From Elusimicrobium minutum (GTDB taxonomy: Bacteria; Elusimicrobiota; Elusimicrobia; Elusimicrobiales; UBA9959), in the NCBI GenBank assembly GCA_020723765.1, contig DYIF01000018.1, positions 1 through 47,297 of the forward strand: a DNA stretch of 47,297 bases. Direction: 5' to 3'. Positions 37,146 to 47,238 of this stretch are shown here, piece after piece. The notes beneath the pieces are model-generated. The model did not search any database, was not told where the DNA came from, and saw nothing but the letters and a program-made list of their open reading frames with translations. Positions within the stretch are counted from its first letter, which is position 1, and every line of letters begins with the position of its first letter. The translations under genes were made by a program, and so were the position numbers.

Positions 37146-38990
37146 TTATCTCTGAACGCCTATTTTAATGGTTTTATTGGAAGAACCTTTGGTTATTAAA
37201 GCGAAATAAACGCCGCTTGCCGCATCTTCTCCGTTTTCGTTTTTACCGTCCCACACGGCCATACCGGAAGAATCGGTCTTAAGTTTTCTAACTTTAACTC
37301 CAGAGACATTGTATATCGTAATATCCGCATCTGCCGGAAGATTTGAAAAAGTCATATTGGAATAAGCAAGACCTTTAGACGGTCTTAAAGGATTGGGCGC
37401 GACTTTGGGCTCGGATATGGTCGAAGAAGGAGTAAGAGAAAGTATAGAGAAAACCGAGAAGTGATTTGTATAAGCCCTAACCTTCCTATTAGTTTTATCA
37501 ACGTATGATTTTAGTGGTATCCATAAACCGGCATTATCATATCTTCCTATTACTAAATTATCTTCATTTATAGAGCTTAAAGAAGAATAATCAACGGTTA
37601 TTTCAACTGGCTTATTTGGTTGAACGCCTCCCGTATTTATTTCAAGGTAAATTGAAGTAGGAGTAATATTTCCCATAAGAGAATCATTTGAAGACGGTAT
37701 TGTATCCGGTCTTTTAACCGTTATATTAACATTGCTATAAAAAGCATCTGACGGAATATTAACCTTAACCTCTCCGCCGCCGTCGTCAAAAATAAGACTG
37801 CCGCCGCCGGAGCCTATTTCTTGGACCGTTTCTTTAGTTTCAAGTGTTTTGGTAGATTTAAGAACTTCGGTAGTTGAAGTATTTGAATGGTTTATAGCGG
37901 ATATATAGAAGTTGTAATCGGTATTTCCTTTAAGTCCCGTAATAGTTCCGTTAACTGTCCCGGCGTTACCTATAAAAAACGCAGAACCGCTATCACTTGT
38001 CGATTCGTACCTTATCTTGTACAATGTGCCATTCGGGTTACCATTGGCATTCCAGGTAAAAGAAACCGAACTGGAATAAACACCGATAAAGTCAAAATTG
38101 GTAGCAATTGTCGCAAGAGTCACAGTATAACCAATTAGTTGCATCTCAGTTTCGTCTACATTTTTGGCTTTCACAAAAGCATAATAGGTAGTGTTTGGAG
38201 AAAAACTTCCTATACCGCCACTACCAAAAATCGCATACTTATTTACCGTACTTGAAGAATACAAAAATTCATTACGATCCTCAGTATCATAAGTCGAAAC
38301 TATGTAAGATACTTCACCGTTAATAGTATCATCCCACGAAACCTTAAACGAATCGGTTGACACATTAGAAAATGCCGCATTAGAAAAACCGGTAAACGCC
38401 ACTTTTGTCTTAAACTCTTGCGAGTTAACATAAATACTGTCGGCAGCATTGCCTATCGATTTTATTTTTATGAAGTATGTCGTGTTTGGCTCAAGATTGG
38501 AGTAATTTAAATTTAAAGATGTCCCCGTAGACGAATAAACCTGAGAAGAATCATAAGACCTAATAATCAATGCATTATAATTAGTGTTAGCAGGATTACC
38601 ATTGCTTGACCATGTCGCTTGTATAGTCATGGTAGTCACATTAATTAGGTTTATAGAAGTTGCGATATTAGGATCTGTCGAACGTTCACCTAAAGGTTCA
38701 TATCCTGTTTCCTCATTATCAAAATATGCTTTCACTCTAAAATGGTAAGTGGTATTTGGTAAAAGAGTCCCCACACCGCCGTTACCAAAAATAGCATACT
38801 TATTTATTGTCGAAGATGTTATTATAATTGACGGTATATTAAAAGATGAAACGCTTGACACTTCTATGCTATACTGTTTCGCCCCCGAAGGATGATCAAA
38901 TGAAATCTTGATTGAATCATTGGATACGTCCGAAAATGTTTTATTACTAACATCACTTAGAGTAATAAGCGTCTTAGTTGAAACAAAAGA
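37146..38990 (-). pseudogene. Fibronectin-III / FlgD-like surface protein, 5' end removed at an insertion sequence
   Basis: About 614 codons of the original gene remain. Four FN3-like repeats come first; the first and third share the block SSTINKYAIFGNGGVGTLLPNTTYHFRVKA / SSTVNKYAIFGSGGIGSFSPNTTYYAFVKA. A Gly-rich linker and a ZU5-like domain follow (GGGEVKVNIPSDAFYSNVNITVKRP...VEITVDYSSL). The C-terminal FlgD-type Ig domain is VAPNPLRPSKGLAYSNMTFSNL...VWDGKNENGEDAASGVYFALI. The C-terminus resembles type IX-style sorting domains. The frame enters the IS at 38990, so any translation product would begin with about 24 IS-encoded residues and would have no signal peptide. The missing 5' part is not found on the far side of the IS. 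Confidence 0.8.
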
Positions 38991-40072
38991 TGTATAACTA
39001 ATCTTCTTCCAATACAAGTATAATATACGTAAGGAGGAAGAAATGTCAAACGCTGAAAACAAACTAATTCAACAAAGGCTCAGCGCTCTTGAGCTGGCCA
39101 AAATATTAGGGAATGTGTCTGAGGCATGCCGCAGACGCGGGATAAACCGCTCCCAGTTTTACGAATACAAGAGACGATTTCAGACCCACGGTCTGGAAGG
39201 CCTCAAAGACTTGCCGCCTATACATAAGACGCACCCCCAAACAACGCCGCCAGAAACGGTAGAGAAGATATTAAAGTTCAGTCTGGATAATCCCACATGG
39301 GGATGCGTGAGACTGTCCAATGAACTTAAACTGCGCGGCATAAGCGTGTCCAGTCCCACGATACAGAATATTCTTATAAAGAACGGGATGGCCAGCCGCT
39401 ACGACCGGCTTTTGAAGCTTGAAGAAAAGCATCTTAAGGAAAAACTGCCCCTTACCCCCGAACAGATAAAGGCCATAGAGAAGGCAAATCCCTGCTTTCG
39501 CGAACGTCATATAGAGAGCCGTCGACCTGGTGAATTACTTGGACAGGATACTTTTTACGTGGGGTCGCTTAAAGGAGTCGGGAAAGTGTATTTGCAGTCG
39601 GTAGTGGATACATATGGAAGTTACGCTTTCGCTTACCTGCATACAGGCAAACAGCCAGAACATAGCGTTGCCGTGCTTCATAATGAAGTATTACCGCAAT
39701 ATAAGAAATGGGGTATTCCGGTTAAGAGCATACTGACCGACAACGGCCGAGAATATTGCGGGACTGAAAATCACCCGTATGAGCTTTACCTTGAGCTTAG
39801 CGATATAAAACATAGAAGGACTAAAGTTAAAAGTCCGAAGACGAATGGATTTACCGAGCGTTTCAACAGGACAGTTCTTGACGAATTCTTCCGTGTGGTA
39901 TTAAGGAAGAAACTGTATGTCAAATTAGAAGAATTACAGGCTGATCTGGATAAGTGGCTTAAATACTATAATTATGAGAGGTCGCATCAAGGATACCGTA
40001 ATATGGGAAAGAGGCCTTTTGATACAGTGAAGAAATTTGTTAAAATTGTAAGGAAAGAAGGTTAGTTTTACA
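38991..40072 (+). mobile_element. IS481-type insertion sequence, about 1.08 kb
   Basis: The ends carry imperfect inverted repeats of about 20 bp: left TGTATAACTAATCTTCTTCC and right (complement) TGTAAAACTAACCTTCTTTC, both starting TGT as expected for the family. One intact transposase gene fills the element. A possible 5-bp target duplication (AAAAG) is seen only if the ends are moved out by 1 and 3 bp, so it is doubtful. Confidence 0.8.
39043..40065 (+). CDS. IS481-family DDE transposase
   Basis: An intact 340-residue transposase. An N-terminal helix-turn-helix (LAKILGNVSEACRRRGINRSQFYEYKRRF) and a second DNA-binding region are followed by the rve integrase core. The acidic residues are visible as Asp in LLGQDTFYVG, Asp in SILTDNGREYC and Glu in KTNGFTERFNRTVLDEFF. 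The C-terminal segment is WLKYYNYERSHQGYRNMGKRPFD. AAGGAGGAAG lies a few bases before the ATG. Codon choice is clearly more GC-rich than in its neighbours, which supports recent arrival. Confidence 0.93.
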   Translation: MSNAENKLIQQRLSALELAKILGNVSEACRRRGINRSQFYEYKRRFQTHGLEGLKDLPPIHKTHPQTTPPETVEKILKFSLDNPTWGCVRLSNELKLRGISVSSPTIQNILIKNGMASRYDRLLKLEEKHLKEKLPLTPEQIKAIEKANPCFRERHIESRRPGELLGQDTFYVGSLKGVGKVYLQSVVDTYGSYAFAYLHTGKQPEHSVAVLHNEVLPQYKKWGIPVKSILTDNGREYCGTENHPYELYLELSDIKHRRTKVKSPKTNGFTERFNRTVLDEFFRVVLRKKLYVKLEELQADLDKWLKYYNYERSHQGYRNMGKRPFDTVKKFVKIVRKEG

Positions 40073-40146: not shown

Positions 40147-43098
40147 TTAGTGTTGTAGTTGTTTATTAGTATCTTTTAAAAGTTCATTGAAAGTTGAAAA
40201 GGTATCAAACCAATAGCTTTTATAATTTTCAGGAACTTTTGCGACATCATCTGCTCTCATGAGAAGTTTGACATTTAATGTAAATTCTTTATGTTTAAAT
40301 ATTTTAGTATGTTTCTGTCCGTTTTTTTCTTCTTCGAATATATTTGAGTATCCATTAATTTTTCGGCTAGCATCAGAATGTTCTGTTCCTTTTGGATCGA
40401 TAAATAAAATAGTGTAATTATTCCCATTCTTTAACCAAAAAATAAAATCTGGTTTAAACTTCTCTATCCTATTGGTTTTGGGTTGGTAGTATGGAATATA
40501 CACTTCATCAAGTGTTTCATCAATTTTTGAAAAAAACCACCAGTCAAATTGTTTAAATATATTGTTTTCATTTCTTAAATATTCATCAAGATCTATTAGG
40601 AATTTAGCTTCGCTTTTTGTTTTAATAATGTGCATAAAATATTGTTCTTTTTCATTTTCACTTATCAATACGGGAAGATAATAGTGGTTAAGCAAAACTT
40701 TAATTTTTATTTCCTTAGTTTCATATGTAACAGTTTCTTCATTAATATAATTTTGAGTAATATTTTGAATTTCACTTACATACTCAGTTGCTTTTTGGGG
40801 TTCCTTCTTAATTTTTTCAGTTATTTCTTTAATTTTTTTGTCCTTTTCCTTGAAGTTTAACACTTTTTTAATTTTTTCTTCAATTGTTTTACGCTGGATT
40901 TTTGTTAATTTAATTTGTTTGAAATGAATAATTTCACTTTCAAGCTCTTTGAAATCTTTAAATTCCTTTAAATGGTTAGAAAGATGATTGATTATATTCC
41001 TGATTAAAATATCTGGTCTATTAATTGTGTTAGAAGTGTTTTCTTTGTAATAGTCTTGCTCTCGTTCGAAACTTTCTTTTAAAGCTTTTAATAATTTAGG
41101 TTCACAATCATACTTCATAATGGCAATCTTCTCGCCAATATAGTCGAAATATTTTTTTGTCAGTTCTATATCATCTCTGGAGATTTCAAATTTTATGGAT
41201 TTTTCATCAGCTAAAATTTTTTCACTATCTTTATAGGTAGGAATTAGCAAAAGTTTATCTTTTGCTTCGGGATTTATCTCAAACAAATCACCAATAAGCT
41301 CTTCTTGTTTTTCTTGTTTCAATGTTTCAATAACTTCTTTTAGATTTTCTGACTTTGTGCCATAGACAAAAAGTGTTTCTAATGGTTGAATATGATTTTT
41401 TATGTCATCAAATTCTCGTTGCGTTATCTCATTATTGTTTAGTAAAAACTGCAGCCTTTTTCTTTTATTGGCAAGCGGTTTAATCCTAACCCCGCGCCCT
41501 ATTGATTGTAAAACAAATTTGCGAGCATCTGTTCCTTTTCCGATGTTGATGTATAAAATAATATTTGGTCTATTGCTATCCCAACCTTCATAAAACGAAC
41601 GAGATCCCATCAAAATATTAATATCAGAATTGTTACTATTCAGATTCTTGAAGAAACTTTCATTATTAAATTTTTCATTTATTTCATATCCGGAGAGTTT
41701 GTTTTTAATCCATTCTGAAATATCTCCGATTTTTAAGAGGCCAAAAGGCCTTTCACTCGTTTTAAGTTTTAATGCAATTTCTTGCTTGTTTCCTGGTATT
41801 TTTATTGTTTCTATAATCCCTGCATTACTTGCATTGAAAACATTTTTGAGTATATCTGTGTAACTTATATTTTGAATTACATTTACATCAAAATCAATTT
41901 TTTCGTTCTCAAATTCAAAAGTACCTTTTAGATCATTCAATAAATCCTGTTTGGCTTGATGTAATAAATCTTTATCTGCTTCTCCCTTCGCAATTTTTTC
42001 CAGTTCTTTAAAAAATAAATACAGGTCAGAGTCTTCGGTATTTACAGAATTAACAAGTGTAAGGATCAATGGATTGTGGTAATAGTTATCTATTTCTGCT
42101 TTTTGCTTTTTAATATAAGTTTTTAAAACTAGTGTTTTAAGAATAATTTTTTGTTTTTCCTGCTCGTTAAAATCATCTTTTTTACCTAATTGTGATATAT
42201 TGGATTGAGAGATATAAATATGCTTTCCGTAGCCCTTCAATATAAACTGTTCAAGATTGAAGTTAAATGCACAAGTGGCAAAATCAATTGGATCTGTAAA
42301 TGTAGCTGAAAAATTAAAAAGAAAACCATTGCGAGATAAAATAGAATAATAGTGCTGTCTTTTACTGTCTTCCCTATCACCTTTATGAGCTTCATCTAAC
42401 AGTATATACCATTTGCCATTATTGTCATAATTCTTGAAATTTACTGTTTTGTCTTTTTGTTCATCAGAAATTAAATCACTACGATAATAGAATACTCTTA
42501 TTGTATTAGCAAAAGAAAGACGGTTATCCCTTTTTATCTTTTCGTAATCTTTTAGGCTGTTAAGCTCTATCGATACAGAAGAATTGTTTCTATTAAACTC
42601 TTCAACATGATTTTTAAATTGTTCAAGTAAATCGTCCCTATATGTGAGAAATAAAATTTCATTATCATCTATTTGTTTGTTTTGAATAAGTTTAGAAATG
42701 ATTTCAATAAGTTTTACAATAACTAGAGTTTTACCACTACCTGTGGCCATCCAGAAACTCATTCGGTTGATGAAGCTAGAAAATGCGATTTTGTTGTTTA
42801 CTTGAGAGTAATCTTTGTCAAAATCTCTATATATTTCACGTATTTTATTGGTATTTAATTTGAGATCAAGATCTTCATTAAAGCCATTGTTTTTGTATAG
42901 ATCAAAAAATTTTTGTTTATCAGCTTTAAAATCAGCATAAAATTTATGCAAGGCTTTTAATGCATTTTTCAATCCTTGTTGTTGATAATCAAAAAGATTT
43001 TTTTTGTTTGAAAACTTTACAAAATCAAAATCCAACCACTCTTGCGGTAAGTTTTCAAATTGAATGGAATTGGCAATGTTTTGTAAGTATAGATTCAT
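40147..43098 (-). CDS. res: Type III restriction endonuclease Res subunit
   Basis: ATP-dependent restriction subunit of 983 residues. The superfamily 2 helicase motifs are ATGSGKT (118-124), LLDEAHKGD (DEAH, about 233), FNFSATFTD and, later, QSIGRGVRIKP. The C-terminal nuclease is a PD-(D/E)XK fold, KPDFIFWLKNGNNYTILFIDPKGTEHSD (about residues 890-917). Type III enzymes cut 25-27 bp from their site when two sites are in opposite orientation and one strand is unmethylated at each. The ATG overlaps the PIN gene by 4 nt. The assignment is secure from motifs and from the mod gene in the same operon. Confidence 0.93.
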   Translation of the reverse strand: MNLYLQNIANSIQFENLPQEWLDFDFVKFSNKKNLFDYQQQGLKNALKALHKFYADFKADKQKFFDLYKNNGFNEDLDLKLNTNKIREIYRDFDKDYSQVNNKIAFSSFINRMSFWMATGSGKTLVIVKLIEIISKLIQNKQIDDNEILFLTYRDDLLEQFKNHVEEFNRNNSSVSIELNSLKDYEKIKRDNRLSFANTIRVFYYRSDLISDEQKDKTVNFKNYDNNGKWYILLDEAHKGDREDSKRQHYYSILSRNGFLFNFSATFTDPIDFATCAFNFNLEQFILKGYGKHIYISQSNISQLGKKDDFNEQEKQKIILKTLVLKTYIKKQKAEIDNYYHNPLILTLVNSVNTEDSDLYLFFKELEKIAKGEADKDLLHQAKQDLLNDLKGTFEFENEKIDFDVNVIQNISYTDILKNVFNASNAGIIETIKIPGNKQEIALKLKTSERPFGLLKIGDISEWIKNKLSGYEINEKFNNESFFKNLNSNNSDINILMGSRSFYEGWDSNRPNIILYINIGKGTDARKFVLQSIGRGVRIKPLANKRKRLQFLLNNNEITQREFDDIKNHIQPLETLFVYGTKSENLKEVIETLKQEKQEELIGDLFEINPEAKDKLLLIPTYKDSEKILADEKSIKFEISRDDIELTKKYFDYIGEKIAIMKYDCEPKLLKALKESFEREQDYYKENTSNTINRPDILIRNIINHLSNHLKEFKDFKELESEIIHFKQIKLTKIQRKTIEEKIKKVLNFKEKDKKIKEITEKIKKEPQKATEYVSEIQNITQNYINEETVTYETKEIKIKVLLNHYYLPVLISENEKEQYFMHIIKTKSEAKFLIDLDEYLRNENNIFKQFDWWFFSKIDETLDEVYIPYYQPKTNRIEKFKPDFIFWLKNGNNYTILFIDPKGTEHSDASRKINGYSNIFEEEKNGQKHTKIFKHKEFTLNVKLLMRADDVAKVPENYKSYWFDTFSTFNELLKDTNKQLQH

Positions 43099-43610
43099 AA
43101 TCTAAAATTTAACACCTTTAACATATCTAAAGTATGAATAAACTTCACTTTACAGTGATTACATACATCCGGAATGTAAATTTTTCTTTTTGAATTTGGA
43201 TTTGATTTCTCTTCTGTTACTACAACTAAATTTTTATACTTTGCAAAAGCTATAACCCAAGCATCCGTATTTTTCTCTTCAAGAAATTCTTTAATTGCTT
43301 CTTCTTTATAATTTGCCTTATTATTCTCTACATATTTAACTATATCTGCGTAATGTTTTATAACATCATTATTTTTTGTAGGATAAAAATATTGTTCAAA
43401 ATCTTGTTCTGCCCATTTTCTTAGTGGATCGTTCTTATCGCCTTCTTTAATTTCGTCATATACTTTATCAATAGAGCAGATTATTCCACTACTTGCTTTT
43501 TCTAATAAAAAATCCCAAAATTTTGTACCAAAATCAAATGAATAGTAAGTTCTTGCCGGAGTAATAAAAACATTTGCATCTAATATATACTTTAATTTTA
43601 AAGTGTTCAT
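43095..43610 (-). CDS. PIN-domain protein, DUF4411-like
   Basis: A 171-residue PIN-like protein. The acidic residues expected of a PIN nuclease are visible: Asp11 in YILDANVFI, Glu53 in YDEIKEG and Asp116 in NTDAWVIAFAKYKNLVVVTEE. DUF4411 proteins are PIN-fold ribonuclease candidates that have been noted next to ImmA/COG2856 genes as toxin-antitoxin-like pairs. Here it overlaps that gene by 4 nt upstream and res by 4 nt downstream. A small Cys/His cluster (VCNHCKVKFIH) near the C-terminus might bind metal. RNase activity is inferred from the fold. Confidence 0.82.
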   Translation of the reverse strand: MNTLKLKYILDANVFITPARTYYSFDFGTKFWDFLLEKASSGIICSIDKVYDEIKEGDKNDPLRKWAEQDFEQYFYPTKNNDVIKHYADIVKYVENNKANYKEEAIKEFLEEKNTDAWVIAFAKYKNLVVVTEEKSNPNSKRKIYIPDVCNHCKVKFIHTLDMLKVLNFRL

Positions 43611-44719
43611 ATAGCAATCTTTAATAAATTATCGGCGGTTTTGGGTTTAAGTGAAAGTAGCCTATATGCGTCTCTATGTAATATTTCATTGTTTGAAAGA
43701 GCATGAGAAATTGTATTTAAAAACTTTTTCCCATAGCGATATACAACAGTATTATAGAAATCTCCCCCTTTTTGTTTTGTTGGTTTTATCTCTTTTTGTT
43801 TATAAGTATCATAAAAATTAAAAAAATCCTCTTGATTAATTTTACCTATATCTAATAATCTTCGGGCAATAACAATTTGACTTACTTTAAATTGATTTGC
43901 AAGTTCATCATAATCTATTTTTTTCAATGAGATTATATTTTCTGTAGGAACCAAAAATTCAGCTGTACATTGATCACAAAATTTTTCTATTTCATCATCG
44001 GCACTTATTAATTTTCTTAGGTCAAAAGAAGCACTTTTCCCCATAAGAATATGAACAAATTCATGAATAAGTGTAAAAATTTTTGCGGATAAAAAATCAT
44101 TGTTATTAATAAATACAAAGGGAGCTATATCATCGTAAATAACAAAGCCGCGAAATTCCTCTACATTTAATTTCCTACTGGTATTATTTCCTACTATCCC
44201 ATTAATAACTACATAGATACCTGCTTCTTCGAATCTATTTATTAGGAAATTCAAAGCATCTTTCTGTGAAAGGTGTTGTTGTGCCCAATCATCTTCTAAT
44301 TTTAAAATTTCTTTTATTCCTTTAATTATTTCTTTTGGAGTAGTTTCTGTATTGAATTTCCCTGCAAAAGGTAAAGGCTGATATCCCCAATCCATTAAAA
44401 TTTCTCTTATCCAAGTTTGTTGTTTTTTTACTAACATTACAGTATCATAGAGTTCATCGGAAAGTTCATGATGAAATCCATTTTTAGTACGAAAGTGGGG
44501 AATAGGAAGATTTTTTTCCGGTAACTCATTTAGAAACAAATAACCAAAGGGAATATCAAATATCTTTGAAATTTCTACTAATTGGTTATAAGTAGGGTAA
44601 TCTTCTTTTGTTAACCACTTTTCTTTATTTTTATACTTTAATTTATTCCATTTCACAGGATAATGTTTCCTAAGCAATGAAAGATTTTTTTCGTTGTATA
44701 ATGAAATTTTTGTTTTCAT
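43607..44719 (-). CDS. ImmA/IrrE-family metallopeptidase with N-terminal XRE-like region (COG2856 type)
   Basis: A 370-residue protein. An N-terminal XRE-like region (TYNQLVEISKIFDIPFGYLFLNELPEKNLPIPHFR, about 43-77) is joined to a zinc peptidase domain with HEFVH at 209-213 (LIHEFVHILMG) and a likely third ligand Glu244 in CTAEFLVP. Related proteins cleave phage or stress repressors and are paired with DUF4411 PIN proteins. The ATG at 44719 is chosen because GGGAG lies 6 nt upstream, inside the last codons of mod; the TTG at 44734 would overlap mod and lacks support. It starts 2 nt after mod. Confidence 0.88.
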   Translation of the reverse strand: MKTKISLYNEKNLSLLRKHYPVKWNKLKYKNKEKWLTKEDYPTYNQLVEISKIFDIPFGYLFLNELPEKNLPIPHFRTKNGFHHELSDELYDTVMLVKKQQTWIREILMDWGYQPLPFAGKFNTETTPKEIIKGIKEILKLEDDWAQQHLSQKDALNFLINRFEEAGIYVVINGIVGNNTSRKLNVEEFRGFVIYDDIAPFVFINNNDFLSAKIFTLIHEFVHILMGKSASFDLRKLISADDEIEKFCDQCTAEFLVPTENIISLKKIDYDELANQFKVSQIVIARRLLDIGKINQEDFFNFYDTYKQKEIKPTKQKGGDFYNTVVYRYGKKFLNTISHALSNNEILHRDAYRLLSLKPKTADNLLKIAI

Positions 44720-44721
44720 AT

Positions 44722-47136
44722 TTACTCCCACCAAATTAACGGTTTAATAAGTTTATAGTCCAAATTTTTTGTATTGATTTTTGTTCCCTCCTCAAATTCT
44801 ACTTCATCTTCCTTAATTCTTTTTATCCAGTTGCCTGTAAGGTTTGACAATGTTTCAGCAATGTCTATATTCTGATAGAGTTTGCTCAAATCCAGTTTAA
44901 CTCTGTTGTTTTCATAATCAATCTCTAGCGCTCTGATCATCTTTTCATCTTTTAAAAATACATATTGCTCATAAGGAGATTTATTGCCCATAACAAACAT
45001 ATCATGGTTTTCATAAATGGTATTTACCAATGCTTCCTCGTATTGTTCAAGCTCGTAGTATTTGAAAAAGCCGCCACCTTGATATTCTTTGACCTCTTTT
45101 GATATGCCCGATTTATCATAAGCCAAAACCTTCTTCATTCTTGGCAAAATCACACTATAAAAATGCTCTCCCATTTCAACACCAAGCCATTTTCTGCCAA
45201 GTTTATGGGCTACTGCTGTGGTAGTGCCTGAGCCAAGGAAAAAATCAAGAATCAAATCACTTTTGTTAGAAGTAGATTCTATCACTCTCTGTAATAATTC
45301 TTCTGAATTTTCTGTAGTAAAGCCGTGCGTGGGAGAATAGCCGGAAATATCTGTCCAGTTAGAGCCGAGCGTTTCCCATTTTGTAAGAAACTTAGGCATT
45401 CCTGTTTCTTCATCCATTTTAACCAATCCTTTCGAAACAGCGTCATCTAAGGCTTCCTGACTTAATGCCCATCTCCTGCCTTCCGGTGCTTTTATCTTTT
45501 TCCCAAAAAAGTTTCTATAAAGTAAATTTTCATCCTTTCTTGTTCCTGGTAAATGCATCTCAACCCATTCCCACTCATTTTCTGATTTTAACTTACGAAA
45601 TCCATTAAAGAGGGTATCTTCTGATCTGCCATAAAAATATAAAGATTCCCATGCTGTATGAAATCTTCCACTTTCTCCTTTAAGCGTTCTTGTTCTTTTA
45701 ACTGCAATTTCATTTCTTAAATTATTATCAAATAGATCGTTCATTAAAAACCTAACAATCCAATTACCATTTGAATCACACCTTACAAAAATGCTTCCTT
45801 TTTTATTTAGCCAATCTTTTGCAATTCTTAATCTATTTTCAAGCAGTGTTGCCCAGTTGGCATCTTTGTAATTTGTGCGGTATAAAAATTGATCCGATGA
45901 ATCAAGGTTGAACGGCGGATCGATGTAAATCGTCTGCACCTTCTTTTTGAATTTCGGCAAAATGGTATTGAGTGCCTGATAGTTTTCGCTTTTGATAAGC
46001 CAGCCATCCAAAGACTCATCTAAATTTTTAAATTGGCTTAAAATCTCAAGTTCTAAATCTTTAAAGTATTTGGTATCAACGGGTAAATGTTGATATTTCT
46101 CGGCTAAATGTTCACCTGTTAAATCTTTTTTAATTACATTATCAATTTTAAAATTTTCATCTACTATCCCAAGCTCTTTCCACTCTCTGATTTGTTCGGT
46201 TATTCCATTATGATTAATTATTTTTTTAACAATTTCAAGATTATTCAACCTATCAAGCGTTACCACATAATTGGAGTTTTTTACAAACTTCGGCTTGTTC
46301 CAAATTTTTACCAATTCATCTTCAAACTGCGAGACAAAATCAATAATCTTAAAAGCAATATTTTTTAAAATTTGGAGTTGTCCCACTCTGTTCGCGCTCC
46401 ACTCTTTTGCTCCATCCCAGAAATACTGGTAACTCCAAAGTTTAAATTGCTCTTGTAAAAATGCCTTTGCATTTTTGTTAATAAAAAAGTCTACTTCGCT
46501 TTGTCTTTCGAAAATCATAAAAGCTTTTTCTAATTGTTCCTCAGTAATATTTTTCCCTTCCTTTCTTATGTTTTTTAATATTTCATCCTGTTTTGTTTTA
46601 GTGTTTCTTTCAGAATGTTTAACAATAAAAAATATAGTTTCGTCTTGAATTTTATCAAACTCAAAAATAAGAGAGCGTTTTTCGTTGGATTTTTTGTTCT
46701 CAAGTTTTGATACATCAAAGAAAAAATTAAGTCCGTCAATATCTACTTTTAAATTTTTGAAAATTTTATCTGTTTTAACATAGTACAACATTTGTGTCTT
46801 CCAGAAGAGAATTACATCATTTTCATTTGTATAAACTTTTTCATATACATTGTTGTGAAAAGATGTAGAATTGAAGTAAATCGATCCATTTTCAGTAAAA
46901 TAACGGCTGAAAAAAGAGTAAAGTTTGTCAAAAAGCTCATCTTTAAATTTGTTTCTATCTTCTGTGTTTGATATTGTAGATAGTTCCTTTTCAATGTCTT
47001 TTATGAGGTTGGCCTCGATTTTTCGGTAGTAATTGGATTTTATTTTCATTAAATTTACAAAGCCACCAGTTCCTTCAATTTTGGCTCCAAGGAAAATGTT
47101 TTGGAGTGTTTGATAAAACTTTTGTTCTTGGGTCAT
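44722..47136 (-). CDS. mod: Type III DNA methyltransferase Mod subunit, long form
   Basis: Modification and sequence-recognition subunit, beta-class N6-adenine or N4-cytosine methyltransferase of 804 residues. Motif IV DPPF (IYIDPPFNLDSSDQFLYRTNY, near residue 405) comes before the SAM motif I FFLGSGTTTAVAHKLGRKWLGVEM (near residue 635), the beta order. The region between (about 450-600) would hold the target-recognition part. An N-terminal extension of nearly 400 residues precedes motif IV, much longer than in EcoP1I/EcoP15I Mod, and has no domain that I recognise. First gene of the mod-immA-PIN-res operon. A GAGG Shine-Dalgarno sequence lies 7 nt upstream. Confidence 0.92.
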   Translation of the reverse strand: MTQEQKFYQTLQNIFLGAKIEGTGGFVNLMKIKSNYYRKIEANLIKDIEKELSTISNTEDRNKFKDELFDKLYSFFSRYFTENGSIYFNSTSFHNNVYEKVYTNENDVILFWKTQMLYYVKTDKIFKNLKVDIDGLNFFFDVSKLENKKSNEKRSLIFEFDKIQDETIFFIVKHSERNTKTKQDEILKNIRKEGKNITEEQLEKAFMIFERQSEVDFFINKNAKAFLQEQFKLWSYQYFWDGAKEWSANRVGQLQILKNIAFKIIDFVSQFEDELVKIWNKPKFVKNSNYVVTLDRLNNLEIVKKIINHNGITEQIREWKELGIVDENFKIDNVIKKDLTGEHLAEKYQHLPVDTKYFKDLELEILSQFKNLDESLDGWLIKSENYQALNTILPKFKKKVQTIYIDPPFNLDSSDQFLYRTNYKDANWATLLENRLRIAKDWLNKKGSIFVRCDSNGNWIVRFLMNDLFDNNLRNEIAVKRTRTLKGESGRFHTAWESLYFYGRSEDTLFNGFRKLKSENEWEWVEMHLPGTRKDENLLYRNFFGKKIKAPEGRRWALSQEALDDAVSKGLVKMDEETGMPKFLTKWETLGSNWTDISGYSPTHGFTTENSEELLQRVIESTSNKSDLILDFFLGSGTTTAVAHKLGRKWLGVEMGEHFYSVILPRMKKVLAYDKSGISKEVKEYQGGGFFKYYELEQYEEALVNTIYENHDMFVMGNKSPYEQYVFLKDEKMIRALEIDYENNRVKLDLSKLYQNIDIAETLSNLTGNWIKRIKEDEVEFEEGTKINTKNLDYKLIKPLIWWE

Positions 47137-47207: not shown

Positions 47208-47238
47208 ATTATAACATTAAAGTAGTCTAGTTTGTCAA
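47208..47238 (-). promoter_or_regulatory. Promoter of the restriction-modification operon
   Basis: Minus-strand TTGACA (47233-47238) and TATAAT (47208-47213), both perfect, but with a long 19-bp spacer. The long spacing suggests weak or activator-dependent expression. The leader would be about 65 nt. Confidence 0.6.

Follow-up and report, generated by a model that had tools for sequence, protein, structure and literature searches.

Within the window, a stretch of 47,297 nucleotides from Elusimicrobium minutum, a type III restriction–modification (R-M) operon was found to carry a two-gene cassette of the VapBC52 family, inserted exactly in the exchangeable slot between mod and res, and we consider it probable that this pair forms a second line of defence after restriction. 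As a predicted function, the layered defence proposed in the initial annotation is well supported, since the corresponding slot in related operons holds CBASS, Hachiman-like and PrrC-like modules and the pair also sits inside type I operons and inside a second type III operon (L277). The part of that proposal in which the pair senses the failure of restriction fared less well: the VapBC52 homologue senses single-stranded DNA (ssDNA) and cleaves itself, so that there are better grounds for a trigger by damaged DNA or by intermediates of replication.

The four-gene operon and its middle pair

The order mod–ImmA/IrrE peptidase–PIN–res at 40147-47136, as first annotated, was confirmed, with all four ORFs intact on the minus strand (Table 1). 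Mod matched MTase_III over its full length (E 1e-276, PADLOC) as well as N6_N4_Mtase, and inspection of the translation found its DPPF and FLGSGTT motifs intact, while Res matched ResIII (E 2e-16) and REase_III (E 3e-29, PADLOC). A beta-class Mod and a Res with SF2 helicase motifs and a PD-(D/E)XK nuclease are thus encoded in one operon, two genes apart, as the genes of a type III R-M system. Between them, the peptidase matched Peptidase_M78 (E 9e-12) and the PIN protein DUF4411 (E 6e-48). With catalytic motifs kept in Mod, Res, peptidase and PIN, the operon looks free of decay.

Table 1. Features of the operon and its surroundings (window positions)
Feature	Position	Strand	Details
Possible mod promoter	47208-47238	minus	TTGACA + TATAAT, 19-nt spacer; weak, spacing long
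mod: type III DNA methyltransferase subunit	44722-47136	minus	804 aa; MTase_III and N6_N4_Mtase matches; DPPF and FxGSGTT motifs intact
ImmA/IrrE (M78) peptidase, a predicted antitoxin that would sense ssDNA	43607-44719	minus	370 aa; H219-E220-H223, E245, linker F76-R77
DUF4411 PIN nuclease, predicted tRNase toxin	43095-43610	minus	171 aa; D11, E53, D116, E134
Insert separating mod from res, relative to the empty site of Athalassotoga plasmid L034	43099-44725	minus	the two middle genes only
res: type III restriction subunit	40147-43098	minus	983 aa; GSGKT at 120, DEAH at 235, GRGVR at 534, PD...DPK nuclease motif at 883-904

The junctions, too, were read directly in the sequence and agree with the first annotation: a 2-nt gap (TAA-AT-ATG) separates mod from the peptidase gene when ATG is chosen as its start (the ORF list also offers TTG at 44734), and the peptidase/PIN and PIN/res junctions each consist of a 4-nt ATGA overlap. 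The overlaps suggest that the amounts of the four proteins may be coupled. The contig stops 161 bases upstream of mod, and the promoter candidate in that interval was left unlisted by the promoter scan, which accepted spacers of 16-18 nt only. Promoter-like matches were about as numerous as in shuffled sequences, and terminator-like ones only slightly more so; we therefore claim no internal promoter for the pair. No RNA families were detected in the operon region, and the search for repeats across it found no clear mobility ends flanking the pair.

The G+C content of the four genes is 26-32%, compared with 35% for the window, and a transposase gene (39043-40065, plus strand) adjoins the operon, together suggesting that the operon was acquired. 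On the far side, an ORF with fibronectin-like repeats (37146-39062, minus strand) begins within the transposase gene, its true start having probably been lost through the transposase insertion.

The middle proteins match both chains of the VapBC52 complex (9vzy_A for the peptidase, 9vzy_D for the PIN protein), and the M78 peptidase gene is followed directly by the DUF4411 PIN gene, so that their earlier assignment to the COG2856–DUF4411 toxin–antitoxin pairs is backed by sequence, by the solved homologue and by fold. The AlphaFold2 model of the PIN protein (pLDDT 94.8) resembles VapC/FitB PIN toxins, and that of the peptidase (pLDDT 89.0) resembles CapP and IrrE/PprI. The zinc site, the FR linker and the four PIN acidic residues are all present; R77, HExxH and E245 of the peptidase were invariant in 39 aligned homologues, and the four PIN residues in 40. 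In the "XRE-like region" of the peptidase, AlphaFold2 models a small helical N-terminal domain. Foldseek likened it only weakly to the DNA-binding domain of ImmR and to C.Csp231I, an R-M controller (probability 0.82-0.85, E above 2), and Pfam matched no helix–turn–helix (HTH) there. The equivalent domain of VapB52 binds the toxin (PMC13273310). Loss of the HTH through embedding was rejected as an explanation, because the nearest free-standing homologues are also without a Pfam HTH and some embedded ones keep a weak one.

The mod–res junction in related operons

Alignment with the Athalassotoga plasmid L034 located the insert precisely: DNA homology runs out among the final codons of mod, at 44726, and picks up again at 43098, the base with which res starts, with the pair and nothing more in between. 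The pair is therefore bounded by the genes of a single R-M system, and the same site is empty not only in L034 but also in a viral contig (L069) and in L095, L096 and L120. Relatives of mod and res were drawn from 341 (mod) and 295 (res) genomes of the window's phylum, and further from 395 genomes in the phylum to which a Dyadobacter locus belongs, two orders within that phylum, plasmids and viral contigs; whole-genome sampling thus covers two phyla. Altogether, 17 operons of the mod/res clade were readable on both sides of the junction, 5 of them empty and 12, the window included, filled with nine kinds of cargo, mostly of defence type. When PIN, Mod or Res was used alone to scan viral and genome contigs, few or no relatives came up, and among deposited phages Res gave only one match, a weak one.

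Besides the M78 and DUF4411 genes of the window, the filled slots hold Bro-N (L058 and L097), AAA_13 proteins that are PrrC-like (L060 and L061, the former also matching PDC-S06 of PADLOC and, weakly, PrrC), SLFN_AlbA_2 (Schlafen-AlbA) with a HATPase (L098 and L099, the latter named by resemblance to the former), RhuM (L117) and Fic, SoFic (L118). The slot of L116 (1657-6677, plus strand), whose operon is closely related to that of the window, is filled by a Hachiman-like HamA/HamB pair (PADLOC PDC-M23A/B) and RhuM-Fic. The cargo of L119 (6939-9306, minus strand) comprises three genes, for two related PDC-M48B proteins, one of them weakly like metallo-beta-lactamases, and a Csx27-like membrane protein. 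A two-gene CBASS, with a CD-NTase cyclase and a Cap15/2TM effector, lies between type III mod and res on the Rhodothermus marinus plasmid NC_015970.1 (L035:8717-10167), where the two genes are annotated merely as nucleotidyltransferase and hypothetical protein. The PDC names denote candidate families of PADLOC-DB, which we take to stem from a 2024 preprint on embedded defence. Slots readable on one side only contain AlbA_2 (L059 and L121) or RhuM-Fic (L065), and in the distant type III operons L101, L102 and L104 a DUF1016/YhcG nuclease gene precedes res, identified by Pfam in L101 and by near-identical sequence in the others.

Comparison of close relatives revealed how readily the content changes. 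Between L058 (Bro-N) and L096 (empty), whose Res proteins are 91% identical, homology is lost where mod ends and returns where res starts. Three operons, L097 (Bro-N), L118 (Fic) and L117 (RhuM), have mod and res in common (Res 68-82% identical) around unrelated inserts. The Res tree mixes cargo kinds, its deeper forks being poorly supported. Immediately ahead of res in L119 is a decayed duplicate of the 3' end of mod, which scored 46 where shuffled sequences reached 27 at most and is likely the scar of a past exchange; a duplicated mod end was sought in 12 slots and was present only there. Cargo may move by recombination in the flanking mod and res. The rapid turnover among close Res relatives and the L119 scar would also suit a junction that merely tolerates insertions, through recombination in its flanks, with the inserted genes working independently of restriction. 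That account strikes us as doubtful, because the slot genes are mostly defence or conflict genes and not a random gene sample, and because the couplings to res stay tight in the window.

The 3' codons of mod (window 44722-44740, minus strand) read TTTGGTGG in all 12 slots compared, those of the window and 11 relatives. This sequence encodes W-W and also resembles a ribosome-binding site for any next gene.

The pair in other genomes

Viral and proviral homologues were collected with the peptidase alignment, the PIN alignment being too diverse as a query, and a PIN gene adjoined the peptidase gene in 67 of the 80 loci. Likewise, peptidase and PIN genes lay side by side at 39 of 40 Bacteroidota DUF4411 loci. 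With both genes adjoining at so many loci in both sets, the pairing is not a matter of chance.

Most copies of the pair, on plasmids, in proviruses and at Bacteroidota loci, are unlinked to R-M genes. Eleven plasmid loci were read, of which one, from Acetobacter (L072), has the order hsdM-hsdS-M78-PIN-Abi-hsdR and the others are free-standing. In Bacteroidota, 9 of the 40 pairs (L240, L241, L243, L247, L253, L255, L269, L275 and L277) are inside or directly against R-M genes, several of them nested in type I operons; the proportion would far exceed random placement among thousands of genes. Three pairs from the window's own phylum (L020, L030 and L031) lie in type I operons, L030 and L031 being recognised by sequence resemblance, and the viral or proviral loci L158 and L161 are type I operons of the form hsdM-hsdS-M78-PIN-x-hsdR. 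The gene marked x, of ~245-253 aa, always stands between PIN and hsdR (L158:6574-7311 and L161:6553-7314, plus strand).

Among the Bacteroidota loci, L277 (5076-12882, minus strand) has the order mod–SIR2_2–M78–DUF4411–res in another type III family (MTase_III PDLC03633, REase_III PDLC03648). The pair appears to have become embedded in R-M operons on two or more occasions among type III systems and recurrently among type I systems. The mod–COG2856–PIN–res order is accordingly not unique to this genome in general, given L277, where a SIR2 gene is added, and the nesting in type I operons; in its own mod/res clade, however, the window is the sole operon of the 17 readable ones that carries the M78–DUF4411 pair. 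The genome of L277 (G445) also holds L098, the AlbA-bearing relative of the window operon.

The distribution of the pair bears on its role. Most homologous pairs are free-standing, either on proviruses or on plasmids, where genes for partition, a relaxase or a recombinase adjoin them, and the G+C-poor genes beside a transposase gene in the window are as expected of acquired DNA. Both observations would suit a selfish stabiliser, in which loss of the operon removes the antitoxin and kills the cell, so that R-M genes and pair keep each other and phage defence is secondary. Stabilisation of the R-M island, raised already in the initial annotation, may play a part, given that in other genomes the pair mostly occurs by itself on a plasmid or prophage, but addiction is unlikely to be the principal explanation: the CBASS, Hachiman-like and PrrC-like cargo of the same slot is defence-related and not addictive by known mechanism, and VapC52 conferred phage resistance (PMC13273310).

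Predicted mechanism and known systems

Among characterized systems, VapBC52 (Rv2515c-Rv2514c) of Mycobacterium tuberculosis, solved as 9vzy and 9vzz, is the model for the predicted function (PMC13273310). In VapB52, an IrrE-type peptidase is preceded by an N-terminal domain that binds the toxin and followed by a C-terminal domain; ssDNA triggers self-cleavage of VapB52 in the linker, with an FR motif as the probable cut site, and this cleavage is thought to release the toxin VapC52, whose cuts in tRNA fall in the anticodon or variable loop and whose overexpression protects M. smegmatis from phage D29 (PMC13273310). Within the COG2856–DUF4411 family, ssDNA self-cleavage and tRNA cutting have been demonstrated for VapBC52 only (PMC13273310). 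The window pair resembles it in the neighbouring genes for an antitoxin with an HTH-like N-terminal part and an IrrE peptidase and for a DUF4411 PIN toxin, and in the HExxH motif, the third-ligand Glu, the FR motif and the PIN acidic residues, but differs in its location inside a type III R-M operon and in the absence of the gating cysteine, with ~25-30% identity. Of the proteins resembled by the peptidase model, PprI is a protease activated by ssDNA (PMC10904395), as is CapP (as stated in PMC13273310 and PMC10904395).

By analogy with VapBC52, the second line could work as follows. Mod and Res would act first, cutting phage DNA under the guidance of methylation. Should the phage DNA persist, ssDNA from phage replication or, more speculatively, from processed restriction ends would activate the M78 peptidase, probably a self-cutting antitoxin, which would cleave itself at the F76-R77 linker and free the PIN nuclease; the freed nuclease would then cut tRNA, and the infected cell would stop growing. 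Loss of the operon may also be made costly by the pair. Slot cargo in the relatives is mostly of abortive-infection type. A more ambitious model, which we put forward tentatively and think unlikely, makes the mod–res junction a dedicated plug-in site, where resected DNA ends left by the R-M enzyme signal the plugged-in module and the ssDNA-sensing protease fires the toxin only if cutting fails to clear the phage. One restriction enzyme would then be the sensor for many interchangeable effectors.

Several related arrangements have been described. PrrC, which acts with a type Ic R-M enzyme (PMC3710099), is likewise an RNA-cutting second line encoded among restriction genes, but there a HEPN anticodon nuclease is fused with an ATPase, and the R-M enzyme holds it, whereas the window encodes a PIN nuclease with its own protease antitoxin. 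A PrrC-type toxin, with ABC-ATPase and HEPN in one protein, was ruled out by the PIN fold of the window toxin, and position alone is analogous. Physical silencing of the pair by Mod or Res, such that phage anti-restriction proteins disarming the R-M enzyme would free the toxin, has this precedent (PMC3710099), and AAA_13/PrrC-like cargo in the slot of L060 and L061 and the translational coupling of the genes are compatible with it. It is nonetheless very unlikely here, because the pair brings its own antitoxin and in most genomes operates independently of R-M genes, and a common mode of binding to Mod or Res cannot hold for cargo with so many unrelated folds. The related suggestion that the pair guards Mod was not adopted either, being less well supported given that the pair is mostly free-standing.

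DarTG2 of enteropathogenic E. coli is embedded in a type I R-M operon (PMC12255303), again a toxin–antitoxin pair between R-M genes in one defence operon, but the R-M system is type I and not type III, the toxin belongs to the DarT family and not to PIN, and a dedicated repressor, RptR, is present. TgvAB is a defence module nested in type I R-M (PMC11411939). RosmerTA (RmrA/RmrT) is a phage-defence system whose antitoxin, like the predicted one of the window, is an ImmA-type protease; PIN domains were reported among its partners, and the toxin tested depolarises membranes (PMC10440598). Against several RmrA models, the window peptidase gave weak matches only (E 1e-8 to 5e-5, 20-33 bits).

The association of COG2856 with PIN was predicted as a toxin–antitoxin system in 2009 (PMC2701414), and multi-pronged defence against phage at the DNA and RNA level has also been published (PMC3710099). 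Defence genes placed between the genes of another defence system, as in the window, were described as embedded defences in a preprint (Payne et al. 2024, bioRxiv 10.1101/2024.01.29.577857) that is cited in PMC11411939 and PMC12255303. COG2856–PIN toxin–antitoxin pairs, ImmA-protease antitoxins in phage defence and modules nested in type I R-M are thus already known. The operons compared here reveal a type III Mod/Res lineage with an exact exchange slot, seen in empty and filled states and with nine cargo kinds. In the literature searched, which included that preprint as represented in the papers citing it, the embedded defences found were type I systems, and neither a VapBC52-type pair inside a type III operon nor an account of the exact slot with its varied cargo in the present type III lineage was found. 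The series of empty and filled slots is a natural one for testing whether restriction and abortive infection cooperate. The ssDNA self-cleavage trigger of the window's cargo family was shown only recently, in one organism, and the pair adjoins an enzyme that makes DNA ends; the question of what signals failure of the first line to the second becomes directly testable.

The cysteine switch of VapB52 is missing from the window peptidase, which has F232 at the aligned place, and the trigger may therefore differ from that of VapB52. A cysteine between H223 and E245 occurred in only 1 of 39 and 2 of 21 aligned members; as the switch is absent from nearly all homologues, it was not counted as family-defining. 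A different cysteine, C248, three residues past the zinc ligand E245, is invariant in 39 of 39 homologues, and a regulatory role for it is possible.
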